40,001 nucleotides of DNA, from positions 1-40,001 of the forward strand of contig ONOQ01000024.1 of assembly GCA_900319485.1 (NCBI GenBank), given 5' to 3'. Positions 988 through 34,992 of the stretch are shown here, one piece after another; position 1 is the first letter of the stretch; every line of letters starts with the position of its first letter. A program made the position numbers and the translations under genes. The notes under the pieces were generated by a model, which was not told the DNA's origin, ran no database searches, and saw only the letters and a list, made by a program, of their open reading frames with translations. The DNA comes from an uncultured Bacteroidales bacterium. Its GTDB lineage: Bacteria; Bacteroidota; Bacteroidia; Bacteroidales; UBA932.

Positions 988-991
988 ATGG

Positions 992-999: not shown

Positions 1000-1011
1000 A
1001 TGAAATTCAAG

Positions 1012-1019: not shown

Positions 1020-1023
1020 TGGT

Positions 1024-2200: not shown

Positions 2201-2310
2201 CTTACTTTCCGATGCAGCAAGATATGAACTTTCCAAAGTTATTTCTGCACACGATAAGCAATACTGATTATCAATAAGTTACACGGGTGGTTTGTCACAC
2301 GTGTGACAGA
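2201..2310 (+). repeat. Junction-like diverged repeat, copy J1
   Basis: This contains, in order, CCGATGCAG (2209-2217), the 13-mer TATCAATAAGTTA (2269-2281), GTGG (2287-2290) and ACAGAA (2305-2310). The same blocks recur in the same order at 5773-5880, and CCGATGCA and ACAGAA again at 34897-34966. J1 and the second copy bracket the ATPase/TIR island, so these may be old integration junctions. The spacing between blocks is longer here (78 bp from CCGATGCA to GTGG, against 48-49 bp in the others), so J1 is the most diverged copy. Confidence 0.4.
2293..2308. repeat. 16-bp perfect palindrome TGTCACACGTGTGACA with two extra TGTGACA half-sites
   Basis: The palindrome is perfect over 16 bp. The half-site TGTGACA recurs at 2323-2329 and 2336-2342 in the same orientation as the right arm. 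Such a cluster suits a dimeric DNA-binding protein, or arm sites of a recombinase; no cognate protein is visible nearby. Confidence 0.4.
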
Positions 2311-2806
2311 ATTTACGGTTTTTGTGACAAAAAACTGTGACAAACTTTTTCCCGAGAAGTTACGAATTACCGATAATACCCCAATATTTCGGGTTAAAGG
2401 AGAAAAAACGGCACCTTCGAGGTCCTGGGAAATCTGTCGCGAAAAGGTGATGTTTCAATCCTCGAAAAACAGCACTTACTCTATGGAATTATTCTAAATA
2501 ACTAGGTGTTACAATGCCTTTTCGTCATCTCAATTCTCTCTCAATTGACGACTCTATGGATACTTGTTTAGTTTGATTGGTATATCTAATACATGAACCA
2601 GACAGGACAAGCAACTAATCCTTTTCCTTCAACCCGAACACTCTTTGAGATTCAAATCAGAGATTCTGCAAATAATTGAATGTCAGAAAGGCTGGTTTTA
2701 AAACCGATACTTATTCATGCGGAAACCCTGTTTTCAGAGGTTATTTCTTTACTTCTTAATAATCACTGACCTTTCCGAGTAAAGGGATAAATGTTTCTTG
2801 AAATTA
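2311..2806. other. AT-rich intergenic stretch with no recognisable gene
   Basis: About 500 bp between the junction-like repeat and the ATPase promoter. A 64-codon open frame at 2303-2497 starts inside the palindrome and resembles nothing I know. The only structure seen is the 12-bp palindrome GGTTTTAAAACC at 2694-2705. Confidence 0.5.
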
Positions 2807-2838
2807 TTTCGCCAAATGAGAATAAAATGCTATATTCG
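2807..2838 (+). promoter_or_regulatory. Putative promoter of the ATPase gene
   Basis: TATATTCG at 2831-2838 is one base off the TAnnTTTG consensus and has TTTC at 2807-2810, 20 bp upstream, as a possible -33 element. The ATG at 2861 would have a leader of about 15-18 nt. Confidence 0.4.
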
Positions 2839-2860
2839 TGGCGGAATAATTTTCGAAGCC

Positions 2861-4281
2861 ATGAAAGACCGAATCATAGGAAGAGAGAGTGAGAAGGAAG
2901 TATTGACCTCTTTGTGTCAGTCAAATAACGCTGAATTTCTAGCCGTATACGGAAGACGGCGTGTAGGCAAGACATATCTTGTCCGGGAATTCTTTGAAGA
3001 CACGTTCGCATTCTATCATACAGCGTTGTCTCCTTTTGAGCTGAAGGATCAGCCAAAGTTATTGTATCGTGCCCAACTGGATGAATTCGCTCATTCGCTG
3101 AAGAAATACGGCGAGACCAAAGATGATCCTATCGAGAACTGGTTTGAGGCTTTTCACCGTCTGGAAGCGTTGCTGGATGGAAAGAAGGGGAGGAAAAGGA
3201 TGGTTGTATTCATTGATGAGATGCCCTGGTTGGATACTCCCCGTGCCGGCTTTATGTCAGCCTTTGAGCATTTCTGGAACGGATGGGGTGCCGGCAAGCA
3301 TAATCTCTTGCTCATCGTGTGCGGAAGCGCAACCACCTGGATGCTGGACAAACTGATTCATAATACCGGTGGCTTATATGGAAGGACTACGCGCGAACTT
3401 CATCTGAGGCCGTTCTCATTGCACCAAACGGAGAAATACTGCAAGTCTATGGGACTGACAATGGACAGGTATGATATTCTTCAGTCATACATGATTCTCG
3501 GAGGCATTCCGTATTATTGGTCGTATTTCCAGAAGTGGAAATCTCTGGCAGAGAATGTGGATGATCTATTCTTCTCCAGCGGAGGAAAACTCACTGATGA
3601 GTTCGAGAATCTGTTTACCTCTCTTTTCGGGGACAGGGTAAAATACCGCACGGTGGTGGAGGCTCTTTCCAAATCCCGATATGGAATGACTCGGGAACAG
3701 ATTGCCGGGAAGGTCGAGATGGCCTCCGGCGGAGATCTGTCTGAGATCCTGAAATCGCTGGAAAAGAGCGACCTGATTTCGTCTTATTACAACTTTGGGG
3801 AGACAAAGAGGAACCGGTACTTCAAACTGACTGACCCCTTCTGCTTGTTCTATCTGAACTTCGTTCAAAAGCACCCCACAAGTAATAAAAGCTATTGGCA
3901 AGACAACCAGTTTACGCCCAAGGTGAATACCTGGCGAGGGCTCGCCTTCGAGGATGTATGCCTCGTCCATCAGGAGGGAATCCGTTCTGCGCTTGGCATT
4001 CGCGGTGTACAGGCAGAGGTATATCCATGGCGGACAGGGGGAGAAGGAAAGACTGACGGCGCACAAATTGACATGCTCATCGACCGGGCTGACCGGGTGA
4101 TGAATGTATGAAGAACTACGAGGCGGACCTTCGCAGAAAGGTAGACGCAGTATTAGAACATGCCAAGAATCGCAGGACTCCCATCATGACACTGATAACC
4201 ACATATGGGCTAAAGTATAACATGTATAGTGGTCGCATCCAGAAGGTGGTTGTTATGGATGATCTGTTCCGTGAAGACTGA
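2861..4281 (+). pseudogene. AAA ATPase with DUF234 (PD-(D/E)XK-like) tail, broken by an indel
   Basis: A member of the large ATP-binding/DUF234 family common in Bacteroidota and archaea. The first frame (2861-4111, 416 aa) has Walker A GRRRVGKT at residues 31-38 and Walker B MVVFIDE ending at Asp119-Glu120, then the winged-helix and DUF234 parts as far as GAQIDMLIDRADRVMNV, where it stops. The missing C-terminus continues in another frame from 4108 to 4281, reading KNYEADLRRKVDAVL and TTYGLKYNMYSG and ending VVVMDDLFRED. In intact relatives the first segment is followed by roughly 14 residues resembling CEIKFS and then the YEADLRRK segment; those are absent here, so a short deletion removed the E-x-K half of the nuclease motif and changed frame. 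The stop and the second ATG overlap (ATGA at 4108-4111). The start at 2861 matches the family opening MKDRIIGRE. Probably inactive as a nuclease; the ATPase half might still be made. Confidence 0.8.
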
Positions 4282-4318
4282 TGCTCCACAAATCTTTTCC
4301 TCTCCATTTAATTCTGCT

Positions 4319-5419
4319 ATGATTATTTCTGAACTTATTGCTAAAGGCCGTGAAATCGAAAAGGGACTGACATATGTTCATCCCGGTTCGGGTATTATTC
4401 GTACTTTTGATGTGTATCGTCTTTCCAATTTAGATGAGTACTATCGTTGGAAAGAGTTCTCCATAAGAACTCTTCAGTTGTATTATCCGACTGATCTTGA
4501 TCGTTTTGTAAAATATTCTGAAGATTTTGAGAAGCAGCGCTATCTTCCGCGCTATATATCTAACATGGTGGGCGTATTAGAAGCATGTGAAGCCCTACCT
4601 TCAGAACGAGCGAAGCAAATTAACCTAATACAGAAAAGAGAAGAGGAAATTGCCAAAGTGCTCGAACTTGAAAAAGATTATGTTATTCAGACAGGTCAGA
4701 ATTCCGTACATAAGTCATGCGATTCTTTTCATAATTGGCATGCTGCGGCTTGTGTACTTTTCGATAAATGGTTTTATTCAACTGACGAAGATTGGGTGAA
4801 GTTTCAGGATATTGAAGGTTCCGGGAATGGATATGTGCTGAATCATGAATATGATAAAATCTATTCTTCATACCGAAAGCTTATTGCTAGATTGAAGGAA
4901 GGACGAGGATTGAAAGGATCATATATCTCAAATAGAACTAATCACAATAATGGGGGAAAGTTCGACCCTTCTAAGAAGATTAGTATTTTTATCAGTTATG
5001 CCCACTCAGATAAAAAGTGGCTTGAAAAGTTGACACAGCATCTAAAGGTTCTCAAAAAGCATTTTGATCCTATTGAGTATTGGGAGGATACAAAGCTGAA
5101 AGGAGGAGACAAATGGCGGGAAGAAATAACAAAGGCTATTGATAAAGCAAATGTTGCCATTCTTCTTGTCTCGACGGCATTTTTAGCATCGGATTTTATT
5201 TCTTCCGATGAGCTCCCTCCCATCTTAAGAAAGGCTCAGGAGGAAGGAACAATAGTTCTTCCGTTAATTGTTTCACCATGCGACTTCGAAGACTCAGAAC
5301 TTGGTGATTTTCAAGCAATTAATAGTCCGGATAAAACGCTTGCTGATTTACAAAAAGATGAAGCAGCTGTAGAACGCGTGTTTTTAGAAGTAAATAAATG
5401 TATAAAAGGACTTCTATGA
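4319..5419 (+). CDS. TIR-domain protein with an uncharacterised N-terminal half
   Basis: A 366-residue soluble protein. Residues from about 220 to the end form a bacterial TIR domain (TIR_2 type): ISIFISYAHSDKKWLEKL, then YWEDTKLKGGDKWREEI, ILLVSTAFLASDF and SSDELPPILRKA. Glu298 in the DELPP run is the likely NAD-hydrolase catalytic glutamate. TIR domains of this kind are typical NADase effectors in anti-phage or abortive-infection systems, which is the inferred role. Residues 1-215 are not a family I can name; they include FHNWHAAACVLFDKWF and GNGYVLNHEYDKIYSSYRKL and have no signal peptide or membrane segment, so they could be the sensing or oligomerisation part. I chose the ATG at 4319 because upstream codons run back into the ATPase remnant. 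The gene is AT-rich (35% GC in a sampled 60-bp line), which suggests horizontal acquisition. It is followed by a strong hairpin. Confidence 0.8.
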   Translation: MIISELIAKGREIEKGLTYVHPGSGIIRTFDVYRLSNLDEYYRWKEFSIRTLQLYYPTDLDRFVKYSEDFEKQRYLPRYISNMVGVLEACEALPSERAKQINLIQKREEEIAKVLELEKDYVIQTGQNSVHKSCDSFHNWHAAACVLFDKWFYSTDEDWVKFQDIEGSGNGYVLNHEYDKIYSSYRKLIARLKEGRGLKGSYISNRTNHNNGGKFDPSKKISIFISYAHSDKKWLEKLTQHLKVLKKHFDPIEYWEDTKLKGGDKWREEITKAIDKANVAILLVSTAFLASDFISSDELPPILRKAQEEGTIVLPLIVSPCDFEDSELGDFQAINSPDKTLADLQKDEAAVERVFLEVNKCIKGLL

Positions 5420-5686
5420 GAATCTGATGATGGAAACGTATCTATGAGTTGGCAAGAGCTTCCCATTTTACTTTGTAGTAGTCAAGATATGAATGAAGAT
5501 AGCGTTCTGATGCTTTCTTGTTGTAGGGGTGGTATTATGGACGTCGCATATACAATCTTCTTGGCTTGTCATCAGATATGCTATGTGCTTGGGCCTAGAC
5601 AGAGTCTGACAACAGCAGATATGCAGATTTGTTTTGGTATCTTCTTGTACAATAAGGTTCAAAAACGCAAATAATAAAGATTCTTA
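5420..5686. other. Gap after the TIR gene, no convincing gene
   Basis: An open frame on the plus strand (5444-5674, 76 codons) and one on the minus strand (5468-5662) overlap almost fully. Neither has a recognisable domain, promoter or family resemblance. This may be decayed mobile DNA. Confidence 0.4.
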
Positions 5687-5723
5687 AAAATATAAACGTC
5701 TGAAAGACAATCGTTTATATTTT
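5687..5723 (+). terminator. 12-bp perfect hairpin, terminator of the TIR region
   Basis: AAAATATAAACG at 5687-5698 pairs perfectly with CGTTTATATTTT at 5712-5723 around a 13-nt loop. The A-rich left arm and T-rich right arm make it usable as an intrinsic terminator in either direction. Confidence 0.65.
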
Positions 5724-5772
5724 GGTTTATTTATCGCCAGGGAAGTGCAAAAATAAGGCTTAACAAATTGAG

Positions 5773-5880
5773 TATCAATAAGTTAAAGCAAAAATTCTAT
5801 TTCCCGATGCAGAAAGTGATAAATATTGATAATCAGTGAGTTAGTGGCAGTGTGGTTCAAATATGGTTCAGAAAAAACAG
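5773..5880 (+). repeat. Junction-like diverged repeat, copy J2
   Basis: It starts with the 13-mer TATCAATAAGTTA (5773-5785), identical to 2269-2281, then CCGATGCAG (5804-5812), AATCAGTGAGTTA, and at 5855-5874 GGTTCAAAT, two bases and GGTTCAGAA. The last block matches 34947-34966 at 17 of 20 positions, and the CCGATGCA-to-GTGG distance is 49 bp here and 48 bp there. This copy lies between the TIR island and the start of the big operon. Confidence 0.5.
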
Positions 5881-5963
5881 GTAACACTTGTCACTAAAAC
5901 GGACTAACTTTACCGTTACTTTCCGCATCGCAAATATCGCAAAAAATCTCCGGATATGAAAGA

Positions 5964-6000
5964 GAGGGCGGCTCCAAGATAGGGGCTGCCCTCGCATTTT
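5964..6000 (+). terminator. Strong rho-independent terminator
   Basis: A 12-bp stem (5964-5975 with 5982-5993, two G-U pairs) with a 6-nt loop, followed by GCATTTTT. It is well formed and GC-rich. No gene ends directly before it, so it may be left over from a lost gene or shield the downstream operon from read-through. Confidence 0.7.
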
Positions 6001-6475
6001 TGATGGCCCGCGGTATGCGCTTCAGCGTTCCCGGGAGGTTCCTCCTTGTCCCGGTTATTTTGGGTTGTTTACTTCTTGTTTTGGTTTAGATGCGGCTCCT
6101 AAACATTAAAATTCACCGAAGTATTGTTAATAATCATAATGTTTAATAAAATCAGTTAAACACTCGGTTCGAGCCTCCCACGTGAGGAGACTCCGGCTTC
6201 TATATTGTTCCCCTTGCGGGGAGAATAACTACTTTTCAATTTGGCATTAGTGCCACCAGAATGACAAAGAACTATTCCACTGGTTAACACACAAATATAA
6301 CACTTTATGCTATAGATCAGGGCAAAACTTTTCTATCTGTCCATCCCTTTCCTGAACCCCGGGGCTTTCCTGCGGTTCCACGCTTTTGTAGGTAAAATGG
6401 GGAAAAATTGTGTGTGAAGAGATTTTTGTTGCATGTTTTGGGATTTTTATTCTCAAAAGTGAAATCGGAGGGGAA
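6001..6475 (+). other. Upstream region of the polysaccharide-utilisation operon
   Basis: There is no gene here. Structures seen are an inverted repeat GTTTAA-N9-TTAAAC at 6141-6161 within an AT-rich patch, a TTCCCC/GGGGAG hairpin at 6208-6223, and a TGGCA-ttag-TGCCA hairpin near 6242-6255. The first is a candidate operator for the operon's regulator, but only by position. Confidence 0.35.
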
Positions 6476-6483
6476 TAAATTTG
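6476..6483 (+). promoter_or_regulatory. Putative -7 box (TAAATTTG) of the 16-gene operon
   Basis: TAAATTTG matches TAnnTTTG and lies 5 nt before the ATG at 6489, the same close geometry as the boxes at 992-999 and 1012-1019. No -33 TTTG is seen at the expected distance, as would suit an activator-dependent promoter. Confidence 0.5.
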
Positions 6484-6488
6484 CAGCT

Positions 6489-7478
6489 ATGAAAAACACA
6501 CTAATAATCATTTCAACTATTGCCCTTTTTCTCTCCTTCTCCGGCTATGCTCAGGAGCAGAAAACCAGGAACCGCTACGGTATGCCTCTTTACGAGAAAA
6601 AGGATGGCTCTTACAAGGTAAGCAAGCCCATGATGGAAATCCTTGGTGATGATATCCCGGACGACCTGCTGGTCCCGTGCAAGATAGGCCCGGCCATTCC
6701 GGCAAAGTTCACCACGGAAGCAGAAACCATAGAGGTGGTCTATAAGTCATATCCGGACCATGACCTTAAACTCTTCATTCACAAGTCGGCCATTACCAAG
6801 AAACCCACGCCGGTAATGTTTTTCATTCACGGCGGAGGATGGTATGGCGGAAGACCTGAATCCATGTTGCCGCAGGCAAAGTATGTTGCGCAGAATTCCG
6901 GAATGGCAGGCGTGAGCATCCAGTACTCACTGTGCGGCCAGAAGGGGATAGACATTGCGGCGGCCGTGCAGGACTGCCGTGACGCCGTCCAGTTTATCAG
7001 GGACCATGCGGCCGAGTACAATATCGATCCCGGAAGGATGGGATTCTCAGGGTCGTCGGCCGGCGGGCACCTTGCCGCTGTCCTGGCCATGACAGAGCCT
7101 GAAGCGAAAGTCCTTGTGGGATGGGTTGGAGCATACATGCCGGACCGCATGCTGGAGTACTGGCCCGGTGCAGACAAACACAACCTCCGTGAGTACTTTT
7201 ACAACGGAGACCAGGAAAAGCTGGCCCCCTACCTCCCGGTAAAGCTTGTCCCCACGGACAGGCAGATTCCCTGCATCCTGTTCTTCGGAAGCGGAGACAA
7301 TGTTGTCCTTCAGGACCAGCCGCGCACTTTCGCTGCAGCACTTGAAGAGGCGGGGCAAACTGTCCAGTTGGAATACTATCCTTATTACACCCACGGCTTT
7401 GCCCGGTTCTCCGACAAGAATGCCGAAGTCTGGAAAAAATCCGTCAGGTTCATCAAGACATACATTTTTAATCAATAA
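6489..7478 (+). CDS. Secreted alpha/beta-hydrolase, carbohydrate esterase-like
   Basis: A 329-residue exported alpha/beta hydrolase. A signal peptide ends around SGYAQ (residues 18-22). The oxyanion loop HGGGWYGG, nucleophile elbow GSSAG (Ser190), an acidic residue in GSGDNVV (Asp270) and the catalytic histidine in YTHGF (His302) form the expected triad. It resembles the acetyl-esterase/BD-FAE-type enzymes found in plant-glycan loci, which remove acetyl or feruloyl groups so that glycosidases can act; which ester it cuts is not visible. I chose the ATG at 6489, just after the promoter box, because it starts the signal peptide; the longer frame from 6408 lacks one. It is the first gene of the operon, 9 bp before the small-peptide gene. 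Confidence 0.85.
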   Translation: MKNTLIIISTIALFLSFSGYAQEQKTRNRYGMPLYEKKDGSYKVSKPMMEILGDDIPDDLLVPCKIGPAIPAKFTTEAETIEVVYKSYPDHDLKLFIHKSAITKKPTPVMFFIHGGGWYGGRPESMLPQAKYVAQNSGMAGVSIQYSLCGQKGIDIAAAVQDCRDAVQFIRDHAAEYNIDPGRMGFSGSSAGGHLAAVLAMTEPEAKVLVGWVGAYMPDRMLEYWPGADKHNLREYFYNGDQEKLAPYLPVKLVPTDRQIPCILFFGSGDNVVLQDQPRTFAAALEEAGQTVQLEYYPYYTHGFARFSDKNAEVWKKSVRFIKTYIFNQ

Positions 7479-7487
7479 CGCAACAAT

Positions 7488-7664
7488 ATGAAACCACTAA
7501 CTGACGCGGAATCAAGGGCCGCTTATACATCTCCACTTGCAGAGGTGCTTTCCCTTGGCAGTGAGGAGTCAATTCTCATTGGCAGTGAGGAGTCAATTCT
7601 CATTGGCTTATTTAACGCTGAAGCCCAAAACGAAGGTTGGGATGAAGAACCTTTTGTATTATAA
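7488..7664 (+). CDS. 58-residue acidic peptide with a tandem GSEESILI repeat
   Basis: A small ORF between the esterase and the large lipoprotein, with gaps of 9 and 13 bp. The peptide reads MKPLTDAESRAAYTSPLAEV, then LSL, then two identical copies of GSEESILI, then GLFNAEAQNEGWDEEPFVL. The general pattern (Y-x-S-P-x-x-E-V-L followed by an acidic tail with Trp near the C-terminus) resembles the short unannotated peptides often encoded before surface lipoprotein genes in Bacteroidota. No signal peptide or membrane segment is visible. Its reading frame is kept open across a 24-bp duplication and it fits the tight operon packing, which favours a real gene. Function unknown. Confidence 0.6.
   Translation: MKPLTDAESRAAYTSPLAEVLSLGSEESILIGSEESILIGLFNAEAQNEGWDEEPFVL
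7557..7604 (+). repeat. Perfect 24-bp tandem duplication inside the small peptide gene
   Basis: Two identical 24-bp units, 7557-7580 and 7581-7604, each encoding GSEESILI. The length is a multiple of three, so the frame is kept. Perfect identity indicates a recent event or slippage-prone DNA. Confidence 0.9.
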
Positions 7665-7677
7665 TCCTTTCGGCACC

Positions 7678-10047
7678 ATGAAAAAGTATATCTCTGTTTT
7701 GACAATTGCCGCACTGGGTGTGCTGGCCTTGTCGTGTGCAAAAGAAATGGATGTAAATCAGGACAACACCGGAAAGAGCATCTCAAAGGTATTCACCGCA
7801 ACACTTGAAAAAGACGATGATGTAACAAAGACGGAAATTCAGTCTGACAAGTCCGTCAACTGGTCTGTGGGAGACAAGATTCTTGCCGTATGGAACGGTG
7901 GCAGCAAAGCATCCGAAGCCTTGACCGAAGGTGGCGCCGGAAACAAACAGTTCATTGTGAACGGCATGGGCGGAGACGCCGCATTTGCAGTCTATCCCTC
8001 ATCTATTGTCAGCACCTATGACGGTACAGATTTCAAAGTGACGGTACCATCGGCACAGGACGGAACATTTGCAAATGCCGCAATTGAAGTTGCACCTGTG
8101 TCAGGAGCCTCCTTATCCTTCAAGAATCTTGGAGGCCTTCTGAAATTTGAAATTACTGACGCAGCTGTGAGCAAGGTTATCTTCTCATCCAATGACGGCA
8201 CCCCTCTCGCCGGCAACGCCACAGTCACTTTCTCTGCCGGAATTCCCACCGTGGCCGCTGTAGAGAACGGTTCAACCACAATAACCGTCAACGTATCTGG
8301 AGCCGGCACCTACTATGTGGCCGTTCTTCCCTGCCAGCAGAAAGCCGGTATTTACATTGAGTTCCAGAACAGCTCTGACGCTGTGATTGGAGAAACAATG
8401 ACCGGGAAAACTCTTGCGGTTGCACGCCGCCAGATCCGCAACCTGAACACATTGTCCGTCACTCCTATCACAAAAAAGTTCTTTGTAACCGTTGCAGGAA
8501 ATGGCACAAAAGATGGCTCCAGTTGGGATAATGCCGCTGATTACGCCGCACTGGTAACCCATCTTAAACAGGACACCGTTAATGGAAAGAATATCTATAT
8601 GGCTGCCGGTACCTACACTTCTACCAAATCCGTTACCATAACAAATACATCCTTCTCAATCTTTGGCGGCTATCCTACCGATGCTACTGGCACCTCCCTT
8701 GCCGGAAGAAACATCACAGCAAACGAGACTGTTTTCGATGGTTATGACACATACAGCATTTATACTTTCAGTTCAGGTGATATTGATGGTAGTTTTGATG
8801 GTGTAACTTTTACAAAAGGAGCCAGGACAGATTCTAAAGCAGGATGCGCCCTTGTGATTGCAAAAGTCAAAAAGTTATCTTGCGCAAACTGTAAGTTTAC
8901 ATCCAATGTTACAACAAGTGGATCAGGCGGTGTAATGCGAGCAGATGCAGGAACTCTGGTTTTCAGTAAATGTACATTCTCCAATAATAGTGCAAAAGCA
9001 GGAGGGGTAGTATATGCTGGTTACACATATTCATCGTCTCCTTCAATTACGTTTAATGAGTGTTCTTTCAATAACAACTCTTCAACTGATGATGCCGGCG
9101 GTGTTCTATATGTAGCAGCAAAGTCAGGTTACAGTCCAACAATAGCATTTACAAAATGTTCATTCTCGGGCAATTCTTCCTCCGGTAATGGCGGAGTTAT
9201 CAATGCTAAAGGTGTTGAGACCGGCCCTACCACAATAACTGTTACCGGTTGTCAGTTTAATAACAATACCTCGTCGGTATCTGCAAGTGTAATATACCTT
9301 GATGACTATGCTACTGTAAATATTGACGGCAGTTATTTCGGAGGCAATATTGCTAACACTAGAGGTGCTATCAGGTTAAGCACTGCAAATAGTATTGTGC
9401 GTATTAACAATAGTTCTTTCAGGGATAACACCAGTTCCAATATTTGTACAGATATTCTTGTTACAAATGGCATTCTGGCTGTGAATAACTGCTCGTTCTC
9501 TCACTCTGCAAGTAGAAATATTCCTGCTATTCAGAACTCTGCAGAAGCATTAATAGTGAACTCTTCACTACAAGGGGGGGTTAATACTGAAAATGGTATT
9601 ATTTATAATGGCAGTGCTAACGCTTCTCTTACGCTTGCAAACAATATCATACTCAATACAAATGACGGTGCTAAGCCGGCTGTTACTAATCCAAATTCCG
9701 GCACTGTGACTTCTTGCGGTTATAACGCCTATTACTACTCCCTGCCTTCAACAGAAGAAGGTGATTTCCTTACCGACAAAGGTTATCGGCTGGGATGGAA
9801 TGATACAGATAAGATTTTGTGGAAGTCTAACAATATGTTTCCTTACGGACCAAACAAAACGGCTGAAAACCCGGATCCAATGCCTAAGGGAACACCGGCC
9901 AAGGTTCTGGAAGCAATACAGAAATTTGACACGGCAAATCCTACTGCCGGCGTAGAGACTTGGCTGAACGGAGCATATCTGAAAGATGCCCTTGGTACTA
10001 CCAGGAATACGGAAGGTTGCTGGCCCGGTGCATATGAGGGCAAATAA
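7678..10047 (+). CDS. Surface lipoprotein, fimbrillin-like N-terminus and beta-helix repeats
   Basis: A 789-residue lipoprotein with lipobox ALSC (Cys20) followed by AKEMD, an acidic stretch of the kind linked to surface export. Residues of about 35-260 resemble Mfa/fimbrillin-like lipoproteins (TKTEIQSDKSVNWSVGDKIL). From about 265 (KKFFVTVAGNGTKDGSSWDN) a right-handed parallel beta-helix follows, with repeated units such as CTFSNNSAKAGGVVYA, CSFNNNSSTDDAGGVLY and CSFSGNSSSGNGGVI, as in Pmp/pectin-lyase-fold proteins. The end (TEGCWPGAYEG) is typical of these proteins. No catalytic residues are recognised, so adhesion or glycan binding is more likely than lyase activity. The beta-helix coding region is visibly AT-richer than both ends of the gene. 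The ATG at 7678 gives the signal peptide; the longer frame from 7537 overlaps the small peptide gene. Confidence 0.75.
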   Translation: MKKYISVLTIAALGVLALSCAKEMDVNQDNTGKSISKVFTATLEKDDDVTKTEIQSDKSVNWSVGDKILAVWNGGSKASEALTEGGAGNKQFIVNGMGGDAAFAVYPSSIVSTYDGTDFKVTVPSAQDGTFANAAIEVAPVSGASLSFKNLGGLLKFEITDAAVSKVIFSSNDGTPLAGNATVTFSAGIPTVAAVENGSTTITVNVSGAGTYYVAVLPCQQKAGIYIEFQNSSDAVIGETMTGKTLAVARRQIRNLNTLSVTPITKKFFVTVAGNGTKDGSSWDNAADYAALVTHLKQDTVNGKNIYMAAGTYTSTKSVTITNTSFSIFGGYPTDATGTSLAGRNITANETVFDGYDTYSIYTFSSGDIDGSFDGVTFTKGARTDSKAGCALVIAKVKKLSCANCKFTSNVTTSGSGGVMRADAGTLVFSKCTFSNNSAKAGGVVYAGYTYSSSPSITFNECSFNNNSSTDDAGGVLYVAAKSGYSPTIAFTKCSFSGNSSSGNGGVINAKGVETGPTTITVTGCQFNNNTSSVSASVIYLDDYATVNIDGSYFGGNIANTRGAIRLSTANSIVRINNSSFRDNTSSNICTDILVTNGILAVNNCSFSHSASRNIPAIQNSAEALIVNSSLQGGVNTENGIIYNGSANASLTLANNIILNTNDGAKPAVTNPNSGTVTSCGYNAYYYSLPSTEEGDFLTDKGYRLGWNDTDKILWKSNNMFPYGPNKTAENPDPMPKGTPAKVLEAIQKFDTANPTAGVETWLNGAYLKDALGTTRNTEGCWPGAYEGK

Positions 10048-10055
10048 GGAATAAA

Positions 10056-21640: not shown

Positions 21641-21642
21641 TT

Positions 21643-22662: not shown

Positions 22663-22669
22663 ACGGGTG

Positions 22670-25732: not shown

Positions 25733-25734
25733 TT

Positions 25735-27408: not shown

Positions 27409-29483
27409 AAAAGTACATAATCATATCTCTCATTGCCCTGCTTGCGCTTTCCTGTGAGAAGGAAACATACAAGGCAACTCTGTATGGACTTGGATGTGAA
27501 TACCCGGTTAAAGAGGTTGGCAGCGAGGCCGGAAAGGCCGTCTTTGAGGTTCTTTCAGACAACGAATGGACTGCCACAATCTCTTCCGACGATTCATGGC
27601 TATGGTTCACTGACAATCCGTCTTCTAAAGAGATTGTGCTTTCAGGAGACGTGTCGCTTTGCGTCTCTTACCAAGCAGACAGGGGCGTCAGCCGCGAGAG
27701 CGTCATCATTCTTACAGGCGGAGATATCCGCGTTGAACTGATCCTGAAGCAAAAGGGTCTGCTCCCTCTGGCTCTTGACATTGTACAGAAGAATGTTCTT
27801 GTGCCCGCTTCCGGCGGAGAATACTCTGCAAGGATACGCACTCTTATGAATCCGGACCTTTTCCTGATTGAATCCACGGAACCCTGGATCAGGCATCTCC
27901 GTATAGAAAACAACGACGTCCGCTTTGACGTTGATGCAAACTATCAGGACTCTCTGAGGACGGCAACAATTATGATAAGCAGCGCCAGTCTGAGCGGCCA
28001 GGTATGTGTAAGCCAGGCTTCGGAAAAGTCTGTCTGGACATACGCCGGGGTGAATGAAGTAAAGGCTCTCAAGACTTCTGCCGGAGAGCTTGTCATAAAC
28101 TCTCATATTCTTCTGGAAGGCGTTGTCCTGAATGACGACAGTGAAGGTAATGGCGCTGAAAACAGAAATGTATCGTCAGTTATTCAGGATTTGTCCGGTT
28201 CATCCTCTGCCCTCTATCTTGCCAACGATGACAACACGTCCGGAATCAGGGTAGATTTCTCGTCGGCCGTCTATCAGAAGGTTTCCCGCTTTGACCATGT
28301 GGCCATTGACCTGTATGGGGCAACTCTGACCAGATATCAGAAGCCGCTCAGATATGTCCTTTCCAATGTGTCCACAGATGCAATAATGGCATCCTCGGAA
28401 ATGGTAGGATTCACCGCCAAGTCAAAACACATCGGCGATCTTGCCGAAGACGACATCTACACTCTTGTTCGCATTGACGATGTGGAGATTCCAATTGGCA
28501 AAGGTCCTTTCCTTCCCCTTGACACCAGACAGGTTTCCATAATGAACAAGTATCCCATGGTGCTGCTTGACAATAATGGAGACAATATCTACATGTGCGT
28601 GAACACAACATGTTCTTGGGGTAGAAACGGGGAGGCCATGCCGCTTGGAAGCGGGTCTGTAACCGGAGTCATAGTCCATGAGCATTGCGACAACTTTGAA
28701 TGGGATAAAGATGCTCAGAACAGGATGCTCTCAGAAGGTCTGGCCCTGGATTACATCACAGATATCGGGGACATCGGCTATTACCAGATCCGGCCGGTCC
28801 ACAGGGAAGATGTCCGGCTTGCCAATGAACGGGACAACAGCTTCTCGCAACTTCTCTGTGAATACACCAGATTCATTGCAAATGCCGATTCCACCGCCGT
28901 CCTGCCAACATACTCAAGCAACGGCAACCTTACTGCCAGGAAGGGCTCCGCTAATGGAAGGATTATTCCAAAAAGGGACTGGAGCCGATTGGATACCTCC
29001 AACTATGGAATGTGGTCCATCACAGAAAACCAGGCATGGAGCTGCTCGGCATGGACTACGTCAAAATACTGGTGCGTAGAGTTCTCTACCGAAGGTATAG
29101 ATCAAACCCACAGTCCCATGTCTGTCCAGTTTGGCATTGTTAATGGATACGGTATGAGATGCGGTGCGCCAAGATACTGGAGAATGGATTATTCCGTGGA
29201 AGACTCCGACTGGATTTCTGCAGGAACGTTTACCGTTCCGGATTTCGCTCTCACTTCTGGCCGCAGGAACTGGCAGACCGCAGGACATAAATACATCAGC
29301 ATCACTCTCCCTGATGATGCCGAGATTTGGGATAAGGCAAAAGTCTGCGTGAGACTGATTCCAATCTCCAAAGCTGCAGGTACCGGCAACTCTTACGACG
29401 GTGGCAGTATTGACAGCGTTGAAGACCAGTCGAGTAAATGCGACAACTCATTGAATTATTTATCTGTTAGATATAACAAGTAG
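27405..29483 (+). CDS. DUF5689-type surface lipoprotein, probable surface glycan-binding protein
   Basis: A 692-residue lipoprotein, lipobox ALSC (Cys17) followed by EKETYK, an acidic surface-export-like start. Residues of about 20-125 and 120-210 resemble BACON/Ig-like modules (LSDNEWTATISSDDSWLWF; LVPASGGEYSARIRT). Residues of about 215-480 match the DUF5689 pattern (SSVIQDLSGSSSALYLANDD, then SRFDHVAIDLYGATLTRYQK, DDIYTLVRIDDVEIP, IGYYQIRPVHREDV). The C-terminal 200 residues form another beta-domain of unknown type. The place directly after susD is where surface glycan-binding proteins are usually encoded, so that is the inferred role. Confidence 0.7.
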   Translation: MKKYIIISLIALLALSCEKETYKATLYGLGCEYPVKEVGSEAGKAVFEVLSDNEWTATISSDDSWLWFTDNPSSKEIVLSGDVSLCVSYQADRGVSRESVIILTGGDIRVELILKQKGLLPLALDIVQKNVLVPASGGEYSARIRTLMNPDLFLIESTEPWIRHLRIENNDVRFDVDANYQDSLRTATIMISSASLSGQVCVSQASEKSVWTYAGVNEVKALKTSAGELVINSHILLEGVVLNDDSEGNGAENRNVSSVIQDLSGSSSALYLANDDNTSGIRVDFSSAVYQKVSRFDHVAIDLYGATLTRYQKPLRYVLSNVSTDAIMASSEMVGFTAKSKHIGDLAEDDIYTLVRIDDVEIPIGKGPFLPLDTRQVSIMNKYPMVLLDNNGDNIYMCVNTTCSWGRNGEAMPLGSGSVTGVIVHEHCDNFEWDKDAQNRMLSEGLALDYITDIGDIGYYQIRPVHREDVRLANERDNSFSQLLCEYTRFIANADSTAVLPTYSSNGNLTARKGSANGRIIPKRDWSRLDTSNYGMWSITENQAWSCSAWTTSKYWCVEFSTEGIDQTHSPMSVQFGIVNGYGMRCGAPRYWRMDYSVEDSDWISAGTFTVPDFALTSGRRNWQTAGHKYISITLPDDAEIWDKAKVCVRLIPISKAAGTGNSYDGGSIDSVEDQSSKCDNSLNYLSVRYNK

Positions 29484-29485
29484 TA

Positions 29486-30793
29486 ATGGACAGAAGAAAG
29501 TTTTTGAAAAATACCGCCATCGGCACCGGAGCATTGTCCCTTCTTGGTCTTGGTAGCGTTGCGCAGTCTTGTGCCGTCCAGAGAGAGAGATCTCACGTGC
29601 CCAGTCAGGGTTGGGTAAATGAACCCGCCCGGCAGATTCCTGTCATTGGCTCTGTGGATGTGCTCGTTGTTGGTGGAGGGCCTGCAGGCGTGGCTGCTGC
29701 GGTGAGCGCTGCCCGTTGCGGCGTATCCGTGATGCTGCTTGAAAGATACGCATGCCTTGGAGGCCTGTGGACAGGCGGAATTGTTACACCGGTCCTTTCC
29801 ACTCACGGTCTTCACAAAAACGGGAGCTGGACAAAGTGCGTGTACGGCTTCTCCAACGAGATATGCGGCAGGCTCTTTGACCTGGGCATGGCCTTCAATC
29901 CCAAGGACCCGTCTGTAGATCCCGAGGCCGCCAAGTATGTGATGGACCTGATGATGGATGAGAACGGAGTCCAGGTGCTCTATAACTGCACCGCATCCCA
30001 GGTAGTCATGTCCGGAGACAGGATAGACTGTGTCATCCTTGAATGCAAGAGCGGAAGAGTGGCCGTAAGGGCAAAGGCCGTTGTAGATGCCAGCGGAGAC
30101 GGAGACATATTCTCCCGGACGGGAGACCCCTTCCGCGTGCAGAAGAACGACATCGGCGCAATGTGGAGAGTTGGCGGCATAGAAGAATCCGTGAAGCTTG
30201 GGACCAAACTACCCGGCAAGGGCGTGAGACTTCTTCACATGAAGGGAGAGACAGACCAGGATGGCCTGGACGTATTCAACATTTCAAGACTTCAGCAGAA
30301 GCACCGCAAGGTTATGTGGGAGCGCACCCAGGAACTCCGTTCGCGTGAAGGATGCAGGAACGCCTTCCTCCTTGAGACCCCGGGCCAGATAGGCGTGAGG
30401 ACAACCCGTGTGCTTGAGGCAATGCGCACCGTCACGCTGGAAGAATCGATGACCGGCGTCAGGTATGACGACGCCATTGGCTTCAGCGGAGGATCGGCCA
30501 CCATACCGTATAAGGGCAGGAAGATTACAAAGAAAGAAAGGCCCATCTGGCAAATCCCTTACGGGGCCATTGTTCCCCAGAAGACTCCCAACCTTCTGGT
30601 TGCGGGCCGATGCTTCGGCTTCGATGAGGGCCTTACCTGGGATGCCCGTGAGATTGCAACATGCTTTGTGACCGGCCAGGCGGCGGGAGATGCCGCGGCG
30701 CTTACTGTGACAAGGTCCAATAAGGCGCAGGACATGGATATTGCCGCCCTTCAGGAAATACTGAAAAAGCAAAATACACTTCTTGAGATATGA
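29486..30793 (+). CDS. FAD-dependent oxidoreductase with Tat signal (FAD_oxidored family)
   Basis: A 435-residue flavoprotein. The N-terminus MDRRKFLKN is a twin-arginine signal followed by a hydrophobic stretch, so it is exported folded with its FAD. VDVLVVGGGPAGVAAA (Gly63, Gly65, Gly68) is the dinucleotide-binding loop, with Glu86 at the end of the second strand for the ribose, followed by the family-typical CLGGLWTGG. The C-terminal ATCFVTGQAAGDAAAL completes the FAD site. Many relatives in Bacteroidota are named xanthan lyase in databases, which the sequence does not support. The likely role is redox chemistry on a sugar hydroxyl in the periplasm; substrate and electron acceptor are unknown. 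It lies between the binding-protein genes and the hydrolase genes of the operon. Confidence 0.8.
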   Translation: MDRRKFLKNTAIGTGALSLLGLGSVAQSCAVQRERSHVPSQGWVNEPARQIPVIGSVDVLVVGGGPAGVAAAVSAARCGVSVMLLERYACLGGLWTGGIVTPVLSTHGLHKNGSWTKCVYGFSNEICGRLFDLGMAFNPKDPSVDPEAAKYVMDLMMDENGVQVLYNCTASQVVMSGDRIDCVILECKSGRVAVRAKAVVDASGDGDIFSRTGDPFRVQKNDIGAMWRVGGIEESVKLGTKLPGKGVRLLHMKGETDQDGLDVFNISRLQQKHRKVMWERTQELRSREGCRNAFLLETPGQIGVRTTRVLEAMRTVTLEESMTGVRYDDAIGFSGGSATIPYKGRKITKKERPIWQIPYGAIVPQKTPNLLVAGRCFGFDEGLTWDAREIATCFVTGQAAGDAAALTVTRSNKAQDMDIAALQEILKKQNTLLEI

Positions 30794-31971
30794 GACAGCT
30801 CTTATTGTCGCTGGCATTGCTGATGGTGGCAATCCCGGCATGCACAAAGACCGTCAAACCTGCCAGATACACGGTGTCCTGGTCAACTCCCATCCCCGTG
30901 GTAAGCGGCGGTTATGCGCGTGTCCACAGGCTTAACGACGGGCGCCTGATGCTGGTCTATTCCGCATCGGGCAATGCCTACGCCATGTTCAGCAGTGACA
31001 ATGCTGTCACCTGGAGCGAGCCTGTAATGGCAATGGAGAGCTTCACCGCAAGCAACGAAAAGGGAAGCGTATTGGTACGCTGCTCCAATGCGGAATTCGC
31101 CCAGCTGTCAGACTCCAATCCCTATCATCCGGGAAGAATCATCTATGCGTCCAACCTCAGGCCGGTAGATTACAGGACATCTATCCATCCGCTTTCCATA
31201 GTGTGCTCCGTTTCAGATGACGGCGGGAAGACATGGAGCGAAAAACGTACGGTCTATGCTTCCAGAACATGGGATGTTGATGCCTCCAAGGGGGCATGGG
31301 AACCCTTTGTACTGGAACTCCCGGACGGAAGGGTGCAGGTGTATTTCACAGACAACACTCCCTACTATGCCGTAGGTGACAACCGGAGCAACAATATCTC
31401 CGTTGTGGAATCTTCTGACGGCGGAGACAGTTGGGGCCCTGAAAGGATAGTCTGTCACACCCAGGGCGGATGGGACGGTATGCCCGTGGTGACCATCCAG
31501 GACGGATACATGTACCTTGTTGTGGAGCACAAGAATGAGAGAGGCTCCAAGTACGCCATGGAAATACAGGGCATGTCCTGCACTCTGGATGAGAACTGGC
31601 CGGAGGAAATCAAGCTTGGCGACGCCAGACGTTTCTACCCCTTCAAGCCTAAGGACGGAATATACTGTGGCGCTCCTTACATCATCCACACAGACAATTA
31701 CTTTGTAGTAAGCTGCCAGTCTTCCGAGGGCGCAGACGAGCCCTTGAAAGACGACCACTGCATCCCCGCGGTGTTCGTGATCCCCATCCCGTCATCGGCC
31801 TCTCCCATATTTGGCCCCATGACGGAAGCACCTATAGCGGTAGATATAGACCAGACCAAGTACAGCGGACTCTGGAACTCCCTCTGTGACCTTGGTGACG
31901 ACTGCATCTTGCTTGTCACCCAGTACAGGGGTACAATTGTCACGGTAAAAGGCAAAATACAGAAGAAATGA
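30790..31971 (+). CDS. BNR/Asp-box beta-propeller enzyme (sialidase-like or GH93-like), lipoprotein
   Basis: A 393-residue lipoprotein (lipobox IPAC, Cys18). Three Asp-box repeats are visible: SSDNAVTW (68-75), SDDGGKTW (142-149) and SSDGGDSW (208-215). WEPFVLELPDGRVQVYFTD around 170-188 is characteristic of six-bladed propeller exo-enzymes of the sialidase/exo-arabinanase kind. Database names of the exo-alpha-sialidase type would be likely, but the sialidase arginine triad is not clear, and GH93-like activity on arabinan or another sugar is as plausible. It overlaps both neighbours by 4 bp (ATGA). The residues after Cys (TKTVKPAR) are basic, suggesting a periplasmic location. Confidence 0.7.
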   Translation: MRQLLLSLALLMVAIPACTKTVKPARYTVSWSTPIPVVSGGYARVHRLNDGRLMLVYSASGNAYAMFSSDNAVTWSEPVMAMESFTASNEKGSVLVRCSNAEFAQLSDSNPYHPGRIIYASNLRPVDYRTSIHPLSIVCSVSDDGGKTWSEKRTVYASRTWDVDASKGAWEPFVLELPDGRVQVYFTDNTPYYAVGDNRSNNISVVESSDGGDSWGPERIVCHTQGGWDGMPVVTIQDGYMYLVVEHKNERGSKYAMEIQGMSCTLDENWPEEIKLGDARRFYPFKPKDGIYCGAPYIIHTDNYFVVSCQSSEGADEPLKDDHCIPAVFVIPIPSSASPIFGPMTEAPIAVDIDQTKYSGLWNSLCDLGDDCILLVTQYRGTIVTVKGKIQKK

Positions 31972-33047
31972 AGCGATTTTTGTTTTTGGCGGCGTTTGCC
32001 GCATCCTTGATAAGCTGCTCGGTGACAGGAAAGCATGCCCAGTGGACAGTGGAGCAGGCCGGGCAGTGGTGGGACCGGACGCCGTGGCCGGTTGGCTGCT
32101 GCTATGTTCCCACGTATGCGGTAAACCAGCTGGAAATGTGGCAGGCCGATACCTTCAACCCCGAGGTGCTTGACCGCGAGTTTGCCATCTGTGAACAGAT
32201 AGGATTCAATACCGTAAGGGTATATATGCATGAACTGCCATGGCTTCAGGACGCAGAAGGCTTCAAGTCAAGGATAGACAGTCTCCTTACCCTCGCGCAC
32301 TCTCACGGCATAAAAGTGACGTTCACTTTCTGCACCAACGGCGGCGGTGAGGGTGAGACCGGCCCCCAGCCCGCTCCCCTGGAGGGCGTCCACGGAGGAG
32401 GCCGATGGGTCCACAGCCCTTTGGACAGGTATTTCTTTGACAGGGACCAGTGGCCTCAGTTCAAGGCCTATGTGCAGGATATTCTGAGAACCTTCGGGAA
32501 CGACTCCAGAATCCTCTACTGGTGCCTTTACAATGAGCCGGAGAATATCAAGGACGGGAGAGACTGCCTTGAGTTCATGAAAAACATGTATCAATGGGCC
32601 TGGGAAGTGAGGCCGTCACAGCCACTTACTTCTCCCATCTGGATCCGTCCCGGCCAGAAAGGTGAGCTTACAAAGCTTGACATGGTCTCGTTCGTGTGCG
32701 AGAATTCAGACATCATTTCTTTTCACTGCTACTATCCTCCCAAGGAACTTGAAACCTTCATTTCAATGCTCAGGCGTTATGGCAGGCCGTTGATCTGCCA
32801 GGAGTACCTTGCAAGGAATTTTGGCTCCACCTTCCAGGACTGCCTCCCTATTCTCAAAAAGGAAAAGGTGGGCGCACTTAACTGGGGACTTGCAGAAGGC
32901 AAGTGCGAGTACCGCTTCCCCTGGGGCCACAAGGCATCCGACGGAGAGCCGGACGTCTGGTTCCACAGCATCTTGTGGAACGACTACACGCCATACAGCC
33001 AGTCGGAAATTGACTTTTTGAAAGAAACAATTAAAACGAATCAATAA
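31968..33047 (+). CDS. Clan GH-A glycoside hydrolase, lipoprotein
   Basis: A 359-residue TIM-barrel hydrolase, lipobox LISC (Cys17). The acid/base is Glu190 in LYWCLYNEPEN and the probable nucleophile is Glu279 in LICQEYLARN, the arrangement of retaining GH-A enzymes. FNTVRVYMHELPWLQD and HSHGIKVTFTFC are early barrel strands. Relatives in Bacteroidota are often labelled 1,4-beta-xylanase or cellulase-family protein without proof; the specificity is not readable here. The protein is compact, with no binding module, suggesting action on short oligosaccharides. It overlaps the upstream gene by 4 bp and the GH2 gene by 1 bp (TAATG). Confidence 0.85.
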   Translation: MKRFLFLAAFAASLISCSVTGKHAQWTVEQAGQWWDRTPWPVGCCYVPTYAVNQLEMWQADTFNPEVLDREFAICEQIGFNTVRVYMHELPWLQDAEGFKSRIDSLLTLAHSHGIKVTFTFCTNGGGEGETGPQPAPLEGVHGGGRWVHSPLDRYFFDRDQWPQFKAYVQDILRTFGNDSRILYWCLYNEPENIKDGRDCLEFMKNMYQWAWEVRPSQPLTSPIWIRPGQKGELTKLDMVSFVCENSDIISFHCYYPPKELETFISMLRRYGRPLICQEYLARNFGSTFQDCLPILKKEKVGALNWGLAEGKCEYRFPWGHKASDGEPDVWFHSILWNDYTPYSQSEIDFLKETIKTNQ

Positions 33048-34912
33048 TGAAACAGTTCTCAGTATTGGTCCTGGCTGTTCTGATGACGGCCTGCGGACAG
33101 CAAGCTACAGACTGGGCTCCCGCCGGAGAACATATTAAAACCGCATGGGCAGAGCAGATTAACCCTCAGAAAGTGCATCAGGAGTATCCCAGGCCCCAGA
33201 TGGTCAGAAACTCCTATGTAAACCTGAACGGCCTGTGGGACTATGCCATCGGCCCTAAGGGCGGAGAGACAATGCCTGGCGCACAGGGGCAGATACTGGT
33301 GCCATTCCCCCTTGAGTCTTCCCTTTCCGGCGTAGCCGGCAGCCTTACCGCCGATGACGCCCTCTGGTACAGAAGAGAGTTCAAGCTGCCCGGGAAATGG
33401 AGGAACAAGGATGTCCTGCTTCATTTTGATGCCGTTGACTGGGCCTGCGAGCTGTGGGTGAACGGGCAGTATGCCGGTTCTCACCAGGGCGGATATACGG
33501 CCTTCAACTTCAACATCTCTCCTTACCTTGATAAATCGGCCTCTCAGGAGATAATCCTGAAGGTGCTTGACGCTACGGAGACCGGAGACCTCCAGCCCAG
33601 GGGCAAGCAGACCTTCAGCCCCTCACGCGGCAAGATCTGGTATACCCCGGTTTCCGGAATATGGCAGACCGTATGGATGGAGGCCGTGTCCAAGGAGGGC
33701 TACATTGCAGACTATCAGCTCACAAGTTCCGTTGAGGAAGGAAGTTTCACCGTTTCTCCCAAGCTGTGCGGCGAGGGTCAGGTAAAAGTTGAACTCATAG
33801 AAGGCGGGATTGGCTACAATCCGGAAAAGCCTGGCAGCAAGGTCCTTGCAAGCGTCATTGCCGATGGCTCTCCGGCCGTCCTCAAAGTCCCGGAACCCAG
33901 GCTCTGGTCTCCGGACAGCCCTTACCTGTACGGCCTCAGACTCACTCTCCTGAAAGACGGCAAGGTGATAGACCAGGTGAACGGATATACCTCGCTCCGT
34001 GAGATTTCCATTGCTGGCGGTGAACACCGCCGCCTGGCTCTCAACGGTGAGCCGCTCTTCCAGTTTGGCCCGCTGGACCAGGGCTGGTGGCCCGACGGCC
34101 TCTACACCGCTCCCTGCGACGAGGCCCTAAGATATGATATTGAGAGGACCAAAGAATACGGTTTCAATATGATTCGCAAGCATATCAAGGTTGAACCTTC
34201 CCGCTGGTTCTACTACTGTGATATGCTTGGCATGCTGGTATGGCAGGATATGCCCTGCGTGAGCAACTACAAGAAGAGGGACGACTGGGCTCAGGGGGCC
34301 GATGTCTATGACGCCGGCAATTCTGACCAGCTCTCTCCCCAGGCCAGGGAAAACTTCATAAGCGAGTGGAAGGACATCCTTGACCAGACCAAGAAGTTCC
34401 AGTGCATCGTTGTGTGGGTTCCGTTCAACGAGGCCTGGGGACAGTTTGACACAAAGGCCGTGGTGGATTTCACAAAGGCAGAGGATCCTACCCGTCCGGT
34501 CAACATGGCTTCCGGAGGCAACTGGATTTCCGGCGGCGTTGGAGATATCCTTGACAGCCATCACTATCCCCACCCCCAGATGAGGATCTGGGATCCGGAA
34601 ATGGTTAACGTCCTGGGCGAATACGGCGGTATCGGCCTTATTGTGGAGGACCATACCTGGGAAACCGGAAAGAACTGGGGATATGTGGAACTTGGCACCT
34701 CTGAAGACGCAACCGCCAAATACGAGGAGTACGCCCGGATGCTGATTCCTCTTGTCCGTGAGGGCTGCGCCGCTGCCGTTTATACCCAGACTACGGATGT
34801 GGAGCGTGAGACCAACGGCCTCATGACCTATGACCGGAAGGTGGACAAACTCATCCCGGCCCGCGTAGCTGCTGCAAACCGCAGTGTAATCACTTGCCGA
34901 TGCAAAAGATAG
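33047..34912 (+). CDS. GH2 family glycoside hydrolase, lipoprotein; altered C-terminus
   Basis: A 621-residue exported GH2 enzyme (beta-galactosidase/glucuronidase/mannosidase family). Lipobox MTAC (Cys16). The jelly-roll domain (ALWYRREFKLPGKWRNKDVL, WVNGQYAGSHQGGYTAFNFN) is followed by an Ig-like domain and the TIM barrel, with acid/base Glu462 in VPFNEAWGQF and nucleophile Glu525 in VLGEYGG. The family usually ends soon after the segment seen here as TQTTDVERETNGLMTYDRKV; the last residues TCRCKR are encoded by DNA belonging to the junction-like repeat at 34897-34966, so the native C-terminus was probably replaced. The catalytic core is untouched and the enzyme should be active. It is the last gene of the operon. 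The exact glycosidic specificity is unknown. Confidence 0.85.
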   Translation: MKQFSVLVLAVLMTACGQQATDWAPAGEHIKTAWAEQINPQKVHQEYPRPQMVRNSYVNLNGLWDYAIGPKGGETMPGAQGQILVPFPLESSLSGVAGSLTADDALWYRREFKLPGKWRNKDVLLHFDAVDWACELWVNGQYAGSHQGGYTAFNFNISPYLDKSASQEIILKVLDATETGDLQPRGKQTFSPSRGKIWYTPVSGIWQTVWMEAVSKEGYIADYQLTSSVEEGSFTVSPKLCGEGQVKVELIEGGIGYNPEKPGSKVLASVIADGSPAVLKVPEPRLWSPDSPYLYGLRLTLLKDGKVIDQVNGYTSLREISIAGGEHRRLALNGEPLFQFGPLDQGWWPDGLYTAPCDEALRYDIERTKEYGFNMIRKHIKVEPSRWFYYCDMLGMLVWQDMPCVSNYKKRDDWAQGADVYDAGNSDQLSPQARENFISEWKDILDQTKKFQCIVVWVPFNEAWGQFDTKAVVDFTKAEDPTRPVNMASGGNWISGGVGDILDSHHYPHPQMRIWDPEMVNVLGEYGGIGLIVEDHTWETGKNWGYVELGTSEDATAKYEEYARMLIPLVREGCAAAVYTQTTDVERETNGLMTYDRKVDKLIPARVAAANRSVITCRCKR

Positions 34913-34966
34913 ACTGTGTTTAAGGTCAATCAGTTACGGGATTCGTGGTACAAATGCGGTACAGAA
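34897..34966 (+). repeat. Junction-like diverged repeat, copy J3, overlapping the GH2 stop
   Basis: CCGATGCAA (34897-34905) is followed after 48 bp by GTGG and, at 34947-34966, by GGTACAAAT, two bases and GGTACAGAA. This matches the copy at 5804-5874 in block order and spacing. The stretch between carries AATCAGTTA, like AATCAGTGAGTTA in that copy. The GH2 gene's last codons and stop lie inside the repeat. Confidence 0.5.
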
Positions 34967-34992
34967 TCTAACGAAACAAGGATTAACAAACA

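Follow-up and report, generated by a model that had tools for sequence, protein, structure and literature searches.

Cis-mobilizable elements (CIMEs) keep attachment sites, lack integration genes and accrete at a shared gene end, as described in the relevant passages of a report (PMC5704250) that also presents SGI1 and MGIVchHai6, both with tyrosine recombinases, as integrating at the 3' end of trmE, with SGI1 occurring in tandem arrays. In Dehalococcoides, tandem islands at ssrA are bounded by direct repeats of the gene's 3' end and carry respiratory genes; the sections dealing with these islands read 15 of them that lack an integration module as possible cis-mobilizable elements (PMC3146451). 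For gut Bacteroidetes, 47 SusC/SusD loci are placed on mobile elements in the corresponding part of a third report (PMC6907783). The locus examined here lies on a 40,001-nucleotide stretch of DNA (i.e. the window; positions 1 to 40,001 of the forward strand of contig ONOQ01000024.1, assembly GCA_900319485.1) from an uncultured Bacteroidales bacterium, and contains a glycan-utilisation operon between two smaller accessory elements. With a probability of roughly 0.86, the window holds a tandem array of three elements without integrase genes, integrated at the 3' end of mnmE (also named trmE) and built up by CIME-like accretion, with the glycan operon as one of them.

As far as the cited passages describe them, CIMEs and the ICESt1-related elements of Streptococcus thermophilus resemble this locus in retaining attachment sites, lacking integration genes and stacking at a shared gene end. 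Bounds of the attL/attR type are present (i.e. a core at each boundary, presence or absence of elements among relatives and a three-way junction for element 3), and the elements have no integration or transfer genes of their own, those of element 1 being an ATPase and a TIR protein. The combination of an own integrase with conjugation or mobilisation genes, which marks integrative and conjugative or integrative and mobilizable elements, was absent from the window. Unlike the S. thermophilus elements, the window belongs to another phylum, has another target and holds a whole glycan locus as cargo; unlike CIMEs, the operon has repeats at its distal end only, and the window elements are known from sequence alone. 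The Dehalococcoides islands, in the sections cited, share the tandem arrangement between direct repeats of one gene's 3' end but use a serine recombinase and ssrA as target. The likeness to SGI1-type islands is in the target only (i.e. the 3' end of trmE/mnmE, assigned by synteny for the window genome), and SGI1 and MGIVchHai6, as presented there, belong to Gammaproteobacteria. As in the Bacteroidetes loci covered by the part cited, a polysaccharide utilisation locus is tied to a mobile element; unlike those, the locus in the window is itself the element, no recombinase was found and the element ends at the stop codon of its last gene. CIME-like accretion is a known process, and the mnmE target for Bacteroidota is what appears new within the literature searched: in open-licence full texts, no report was found of mnmE as an integration target in Bacteroidota or of an integrase-less polysaccharide-utilisation locus as a mobile element.

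An earlier note on this DNA had described three related copies of a junction-like sequence, with ordered blocks common to all three. A direct sequence check confirmed the copies and placed them on the + strand: CCGATGCA occurs on the + strand at 2209, 5804 and 34897 and nowhere else in the window, and the 13-mer TATCAATAAGTTA is identical at 2269 and 5773, its only two places. The spacing from CCGATGCA to GTGGT was found to be 48 in copy 3, as noted, and also 48, not 49, in copy 2. Each core is followed by repeats of its own. Site 1 (2203..2347, + strand), at the left or distal end of element 1, comprises the core TACTTTCCGATGCA, a long spacer and TGTCACA/TGTGACA repeats (TGTGACA three times, TGTCACA once). 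Site 2 (5796..5875, +), at the left end of the operon element, comprises the core TATTTCCCGATGCA, a TTGATAATCA block and a doubled TGGTTCA, and site 3 (34891..34966, +), at the left end of element 3, the core CACTTGCCGATGCA and a doubled TGGTACA. Models used for scoring the window sites excluded the window's own copies. Copies 2 and 3 were recovered at E = 3.1e-19 and E = 2e-18 by a model of 12 sites from other genomes, one of which, from the genome G074, nearly copies site 3. Copy 1, which belongs to another subtype with a longer spacer, scored E = 1.4e-4 under this model, and was found (2201-2347) at E = 4.4e-30 by a model of three long-spacer sites from other genomes. As models from other genomes recover the copies at low E, their likeness is not due to chance. 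Within the window's own genome, a search with the doubled-repeat pattern (≤2 mismatches) matched copies 2 and 3 and nothing else. Elsewhere, a site 1-like end adjoins a Fic gene in G016 (75.6% identity over 562 bp), TGGTTCA repeats of the site 2 type are present at the integrase end in G013 and G072, and a site 3-type end occurs in G265 and, by eye, in G074.

In reverse complement, the core equals the 3' end of mnmE, which encodes a protein ending in C-I-G-K-stop; read in reverse, TAYTTNCCGATGCA gives TGC ATC GGN AAR TA, the mnmE end. This ending was matched in 26 of 30 mnmE loci, and the gene beside the core in G122 was assigned to MnmE by Pfam and has the C-terminus NHCIGK-stop. Among 25 genomes picked for having sites, the core pattern occurred at 49 places in 22 genomes (seven with the reversed control). 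Of 101 genomes of the genus, 25 had a match to a pattern for the right half of the site (≤2 mismatches), and none matched its reversed control. The 29 places so found were sorted by eye into 15 of the window type, 10 of a related palindromic type and four chance-like matches in coding DNA. The palindromic type was considered as a separate element and rejected: seven of the ten places lie 112-145 bp from the mnmE 3' end and are therefore taken for mnmE-side repeats, while for the remaining three mnmE is on another contig (G030) or the genome fell outside the mnmE search (G076 and G093). The site 3 repeats (TGGTACA) are similar to those of the palindromic type in G031, where they lie 123 bp from mnmE, and in G076 and G030. 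A scan of named genomes with an exact pattern gave 13 Bacteroidota loci, four of them with rumen in their names, including Prevotella sp. and Labilibaculum filiforme, whose genus belongs to this phylum. Under the 12-site model, 12 of the 13 scored E ≤ 7.9e-11 and one (L108) 0.0024, the score of L106 being circular as it is taken for a member of the model (G006:C21).

The position of sites relative to mnmE was assessed on 23 contigs (i.e. the contigs of 27 places at E < 1e-8, minus the window's two and second places on G064:C4 and G141:C7). A strong site and mnmE shared a contig in seven cases, and in all seven the site was 3' of mnmE, in the predicted orientation and 1.0 to 29.2 kb off. The other 16 contigs end ≤6.8 kb away on the mnmE-facing side, with mnmE on another contig for ten and not found for six; the contig-end test says little for four of the 16, because those are under 9 kb. 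Rather than lying at random intergenic places, an outcome that the earlier note had set against its own proposal, the sites are tied to mnmE in every testable contig, and an origin as scattered intergenic repeats or transposon ends was rejected on these grounds. A family of transposons, miniature inverted-repeat transposable elements or integron-type cassettes inserting at many places would fit the diverse single cargo genes that adjoin sites in a cassette-like manner (Fic, AAA ATPases, AlbA_2), but is very improbable given the identity of the core, its position 3' of mnmE and the paired cores, which are direct and not inverted repeats. Direct-orientation paired cores or sites bound stretches in G064, G141, G149, G006, G037 and G016. 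A second target, greA, which is present in several loci, was also considered and rejected, since the orientation of the sites makes greA the outer flank in most.

Natural controls were provided by two genomes, G265 and G184, which were the only ones besides the window to give a 100% match in a search for the glycoside hydrolase family 2 (GH2) gene of the operon over 300 genomes. A single contig of G184 (C19) carries, in order, mnmE, a core, the operon from GH2 onwards, the site 2 repeats and core, 27 bp and the threonine-aldolase gene. In G265 the order is mnmE, core, an AlbA_2 island, the site 3 repeats and core, and the operon; on another contig, the left end of the operon is followed by 27 bp and threonine aldolase. 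The window reads threonine aldolase, element 1, operon, element 3. By these gene orders, elements 1 and 3 were inserted at either end of the operon element (5804..34896, + strand; 29.1 kb, edges at the cores). Both relatives lack element 1 at this place and have threonine aldolase 27 bp from the left core of the operon; element 3 is found in G265 but not in G184. Wherever either is absent, a single core copy remains. The collapse of an empty site to one copy, put forward earlier as a check, was thus seen for elements 1 and 3 and not for the operon itself, as no empty locus was found: mnmE joined to the threonine-aldolase flank without the operon was not found in the nine of 30 threonine-aldolase loci that were inspected, and two relatives with threonine aldolase (G180 and G223) have neither core nor mnmE in their loci and are not clean empty sites.

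Sequence identity changes abruptly at the cores. Between copies 2 and 3, the window and G184 agree at 99.6-99.8% (8676-9885 apart), as compared to 89-94% for the flank; summed over alignment pieces longer than 100 bp, the identities are 99.81% over 27,877 aligned bp of the operon against 90.17% over 2,014 bp of flank for G184, and 99.83% over 25,006 bp against 90.05% over 2,031 bp for G265. Between G265 and G184, a stretch of 13,198 bp that includes mnmE and reaches the core has 91.0% identity, and the 26,033 bp of operon beyond it have 99.84%; on the other side, it is 93.63% over 2,591 bp and then 99.59% over 1,453 bp. These comparisons indicate that the glycan operon crossed between lineages as one unit. 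Alternatively, the operon could be an ordinary locus at this position, made near-identical by homologous recombination with the cores as bystanders. Homologous exchange also yields identity steps, the operon adjoins one and the same flank in each of the three genomes and no empty locus was seen in the nine loci inspected, but on either side the step from 91-94% to 99.6-99.8% coincides with the core, the same cores bound the gain or loss of elements 1 and 3 and the last codons of GH2 have been replaced by the core, making this explanation unlikely. Chimeric joining of metagenomic contigs at a repeated word is a further concern, as the assemblies are in fragments, a contamination of 6% is given for G265 and the window beyond 35748 has no counterpart in the relatives. 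Such an artefact has a very small chance of accounting for the arrangement, since contig C19 of G184 spans mnmE, the operon and the threonine-aldolase flank, G265 repeats the operon's left join, and comparable stretches in G013 and G016 are each contained in a single contig, of 97 and 534 kb.

The point of exchange was located from the junction sequences. The window, G184 and G265 all have CACTTG-CCGATGCA at the right end of the operon. In G184 mnmE comes next; G265 and the window continue with the AlbA_2 island. The G184 junction reads CACTTG-CCGATGCA-GTGGTGG (mnmE), and those of G265 read CACTTG-CCGATGCA-AAAGATAG (island) and TATTTC-CCGATGCA-GTGGTGG (mnmE). Because the junction sequences of G184 and G265 switch there, the crossover for element 3 is placed within CCGATGCA. 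Tyrosine recombinases commonly exchange strands over 6-8 bp. The proposal that the copies mark the edges of accessory blocks was upheld, with elements 1 and 3 coming and going at cores, and the natural controls and the identity steps support repeated integration at related sites, in which the operon is mobile cargo.

The GH2 gene (33047..34912, + strand) forms the right end of the operon element. Its last codons are made by the third core copy, as had been proposed, the window protein ending ...NRSVITCRCKR-stop. Seven sister GH2 genes (66-71% identity) end ...VIESM-stop, ...VIESMK-stop, ...VIESLK-stop or ...VIDLLK-stop, and in G184 the GH2 frame continues into mnmE antisense. A resemblance of the native GH2 end to the core was also considered and is weak, with six of eight letters agreeing in three of the seven sisters and fewer in four, a level (i.e. 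6/8) that 12% of operon 36-mers reach.

No recombinase gene had been noticed in the window, and none of the genome's seven Phage_integrase matches is on the window contig. Two mnmE-adjacent integrases used as queries gave no match in the window and no integrase remnant, and the Pfam families assigned to 15 operon genes include none of recombinases or transfer proteins, three of these genes matching no family at all. In sister genomes, Phage_integrase genes were found 1.1-2.0 kb from the mnmE 3' end in four of 16 genomes (G013, G072, G069 and G064), mnmE having been found in 13 of the 16. The 29.2-kb island of G013 has mnmE and an integrase at one end and an operon-type site with core at the other, with TGGTTCA repeats at both ends. 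On its mnmE side, the order is core, TGGTTCA repeats, an HTH_17 gene and the integrase (Arm-DNA-bind_5, SAM_5, Phage_integrase). For a possible descent of the operon element from a decayed integrative and conjugative or integrative and mobilizable element, there is a likeness between the operon's left end and the end of this island away from mnmE, but no integrase remnant was found in the window. The G072 integrase is 80% identical to that of G013, and those of G069 and G064 form a second subfamily (34-37% identity to the first, 70.5% to each other). Against phages, all matches of the G013 integrase were under 60% identity. An integrase-like open reading frame (ORF) with a similar N-terminus, judged by eye, is present in G149. 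Repeats of the site 1 type (TGTGACA/TGTCACA) lie between mnmE and the integrase in G069, or the integrase-like ORF in G149. In G141, an integrase C-terminal remnant lies between two sites (L086 10976-11176), near the mnmE-facing end where an integrase is expected, and in another record (L112) an integrase gene adjoins a site. The suggestion of a tyrosine recombinase is thus supported by the tyrosine integrases beside mnmE in sister genomes; which of these acts at a given element is something that we infer.

Under the tandem-element interpretation, each element would start, away from mnmE, with a core and repeats and would end at the next core towards mnmE. The repeats would be putative binding sites of one recombinase per element, and CCGATGCA would be where the tyrosine integrases of islands at the same site (Arm-DNA-bind_5/SAM_5/Phage_integrase) exchange strands. 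The common core would allow elements that depend on different integrases to stack side by side, and, as no integrase was found in the three elements, mobilisation would occur by an integrase in trans or in cis within a composite with an intact neighbour. More speculatively, the mnmE end may serve as a common docking port, at which one 8-bp exchange block is common to several integrase classes that differ in their repeats; any of these classes could stack, release and regroup integrase-free cargo, and new cargo would be captured when an integrase uses a core-like gene end (here that of GH2). This extension is possible, though doubtful. Tandem accretion of this kind would offer a concrete route for a whole glycan-use locus to move between Bacteroidales without a recombinase of its own. 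Integrase-keyed scans would miss such cargo because the locus carries no recombinase, and the core with its adjoining repeats makes it findable by a simple pattern.

Several observations weigh against accretion at mnmE as the account of this window. mnmE was not found in the assembly of the window's genome, and its position is therefore taken from the relatives, whose synteny would place it beyond the window's right end. At the left junction, the stretch from threonine aldolase to core 1 measures 144 bp and bears no resemblance to the 27 bp of the relatives, so that no clean three-way comparison is available there. The right end of the operon lacks any repeat tested, and the operon may be defective for excision. 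Within the operon, the stretch 8676-9885 matches neither G184 nor G265, which is read as a replacement or repeat-driven change. Element 3 diverges more from G265 (95.62% over 844 bp) than the operon does (99.83%); on account of this difference the two did not simply travel together, and the identities point to a separate history for element 3. Beyond 35748, a search of bases 35500-38500 gave only short weak matches to G184 or G265, and a further insertion, deletion, rearrangement or assembly chimera is possible in this part. Finally, the type of repeat is not strictly tied to the integrase subfamily, as G064, with an integrase of the G069 subfamily, has GGCACAC-type repeats between this gene and mnmE, and the integrase-to-mnmE context covers two of the three window repeat types (TGTGACA and TGGTTCA).

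Element 3 (34897..35748, + strand) is a remnant cut at 35748 with a minus-strand gene broken in frame, and was named AlbA_2 from its intact counterpart in G265, a gene of 490 aa with an SLFN_AlbA_2 domain. The ORFs of the remnant itself (34993-35394 and 35361-35813) match HATPase_c_4 and HTH_24, not AlbA_2. Products encoded to its right in the window (35748-40001) were assigned by Pfam as a histidine kinase, a response regulator and a Na/Pi cotransporter that has a PhoU domain.

The glycan genes of the operon extend from 6408 to 34912 on the + strand. Families assigned by Pfam were a BD-FAE-type esterase, DUF5107/TPR, an aldose epimerase, a hybrid two-component regulator, a SusC-like receptor (Plug), SusD, BACON/DUF5689, an FAD oxidoreductase, a BNR-repeat protein and GH2, alongside ORFs without a clear family. 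The ~1.2 kb of the operon that is unmatched in the relatives sits inside an ORF of 836 aa (7537-10047); G184 and G265 have ~0.93 kb there.

Element 1 (2209..5803, + strand) is an island of ~3.6 kb between CCGATGCA blocks. It encodes an AAA ATPase (2861..4111, +; Pfam ATPase_2, E = 6.2e-15; PADLOC candidate defence model PDC-S27, E = 2.6e-165) and a TIR-domain protein (4319..5419, +; TIR_2, E = 1.6e-16; PADLOC ThsB, E = 1.8e-19, residues 222-362). Its right, mnmE-facing end (5757..5803, +) was defined from the sequence and has TATCAATAAGTTA ahead of the next core; in several sister genomes, the core at mnmE likewise has TTGATWATCAA-like words in front of it.

Sugar-use genes share this hotspot with defence-like genes. 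Accessory genes beside sites include ATPases (ATPase_2/DUF234 and AAA_14/DUF4143), Fic/DUF4172, RhuM-Fic and AlbA_2 by Pfam, and several of them match PADLOC models of known or candidate defence proteins. The G013 island also carries primase-like, methyltransferase, Piwi and serine-recombinase genes, and its Piwi-domain protein (L192 13381-15471) matches a PADLOC pAgo model over its whole length. In G016, the stretch from mnmE to a site 28.8 kb away encodes subunits for type I restriction-modification, as well as a protein of 2213 aa that matches TmtA models (L194 8092-19634), from which mnmE is a possible defence hotspot.

The chromosomal flank at the left of the window (394..2058) contains, by Pfam, a peptide deformylase gene on the - strand and a threonine-aldolase-like Beta_elim_lyase gene on the + strand, a pair that also adjoins the left end of the operon in G184 and G265. 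Between threonine aldolase and core 1, a hairpin-like inverted repeat was observed at 2112-2173 (TTTACAACATTTACTCC...), of which the genome has a similar copy on another contig, C60.

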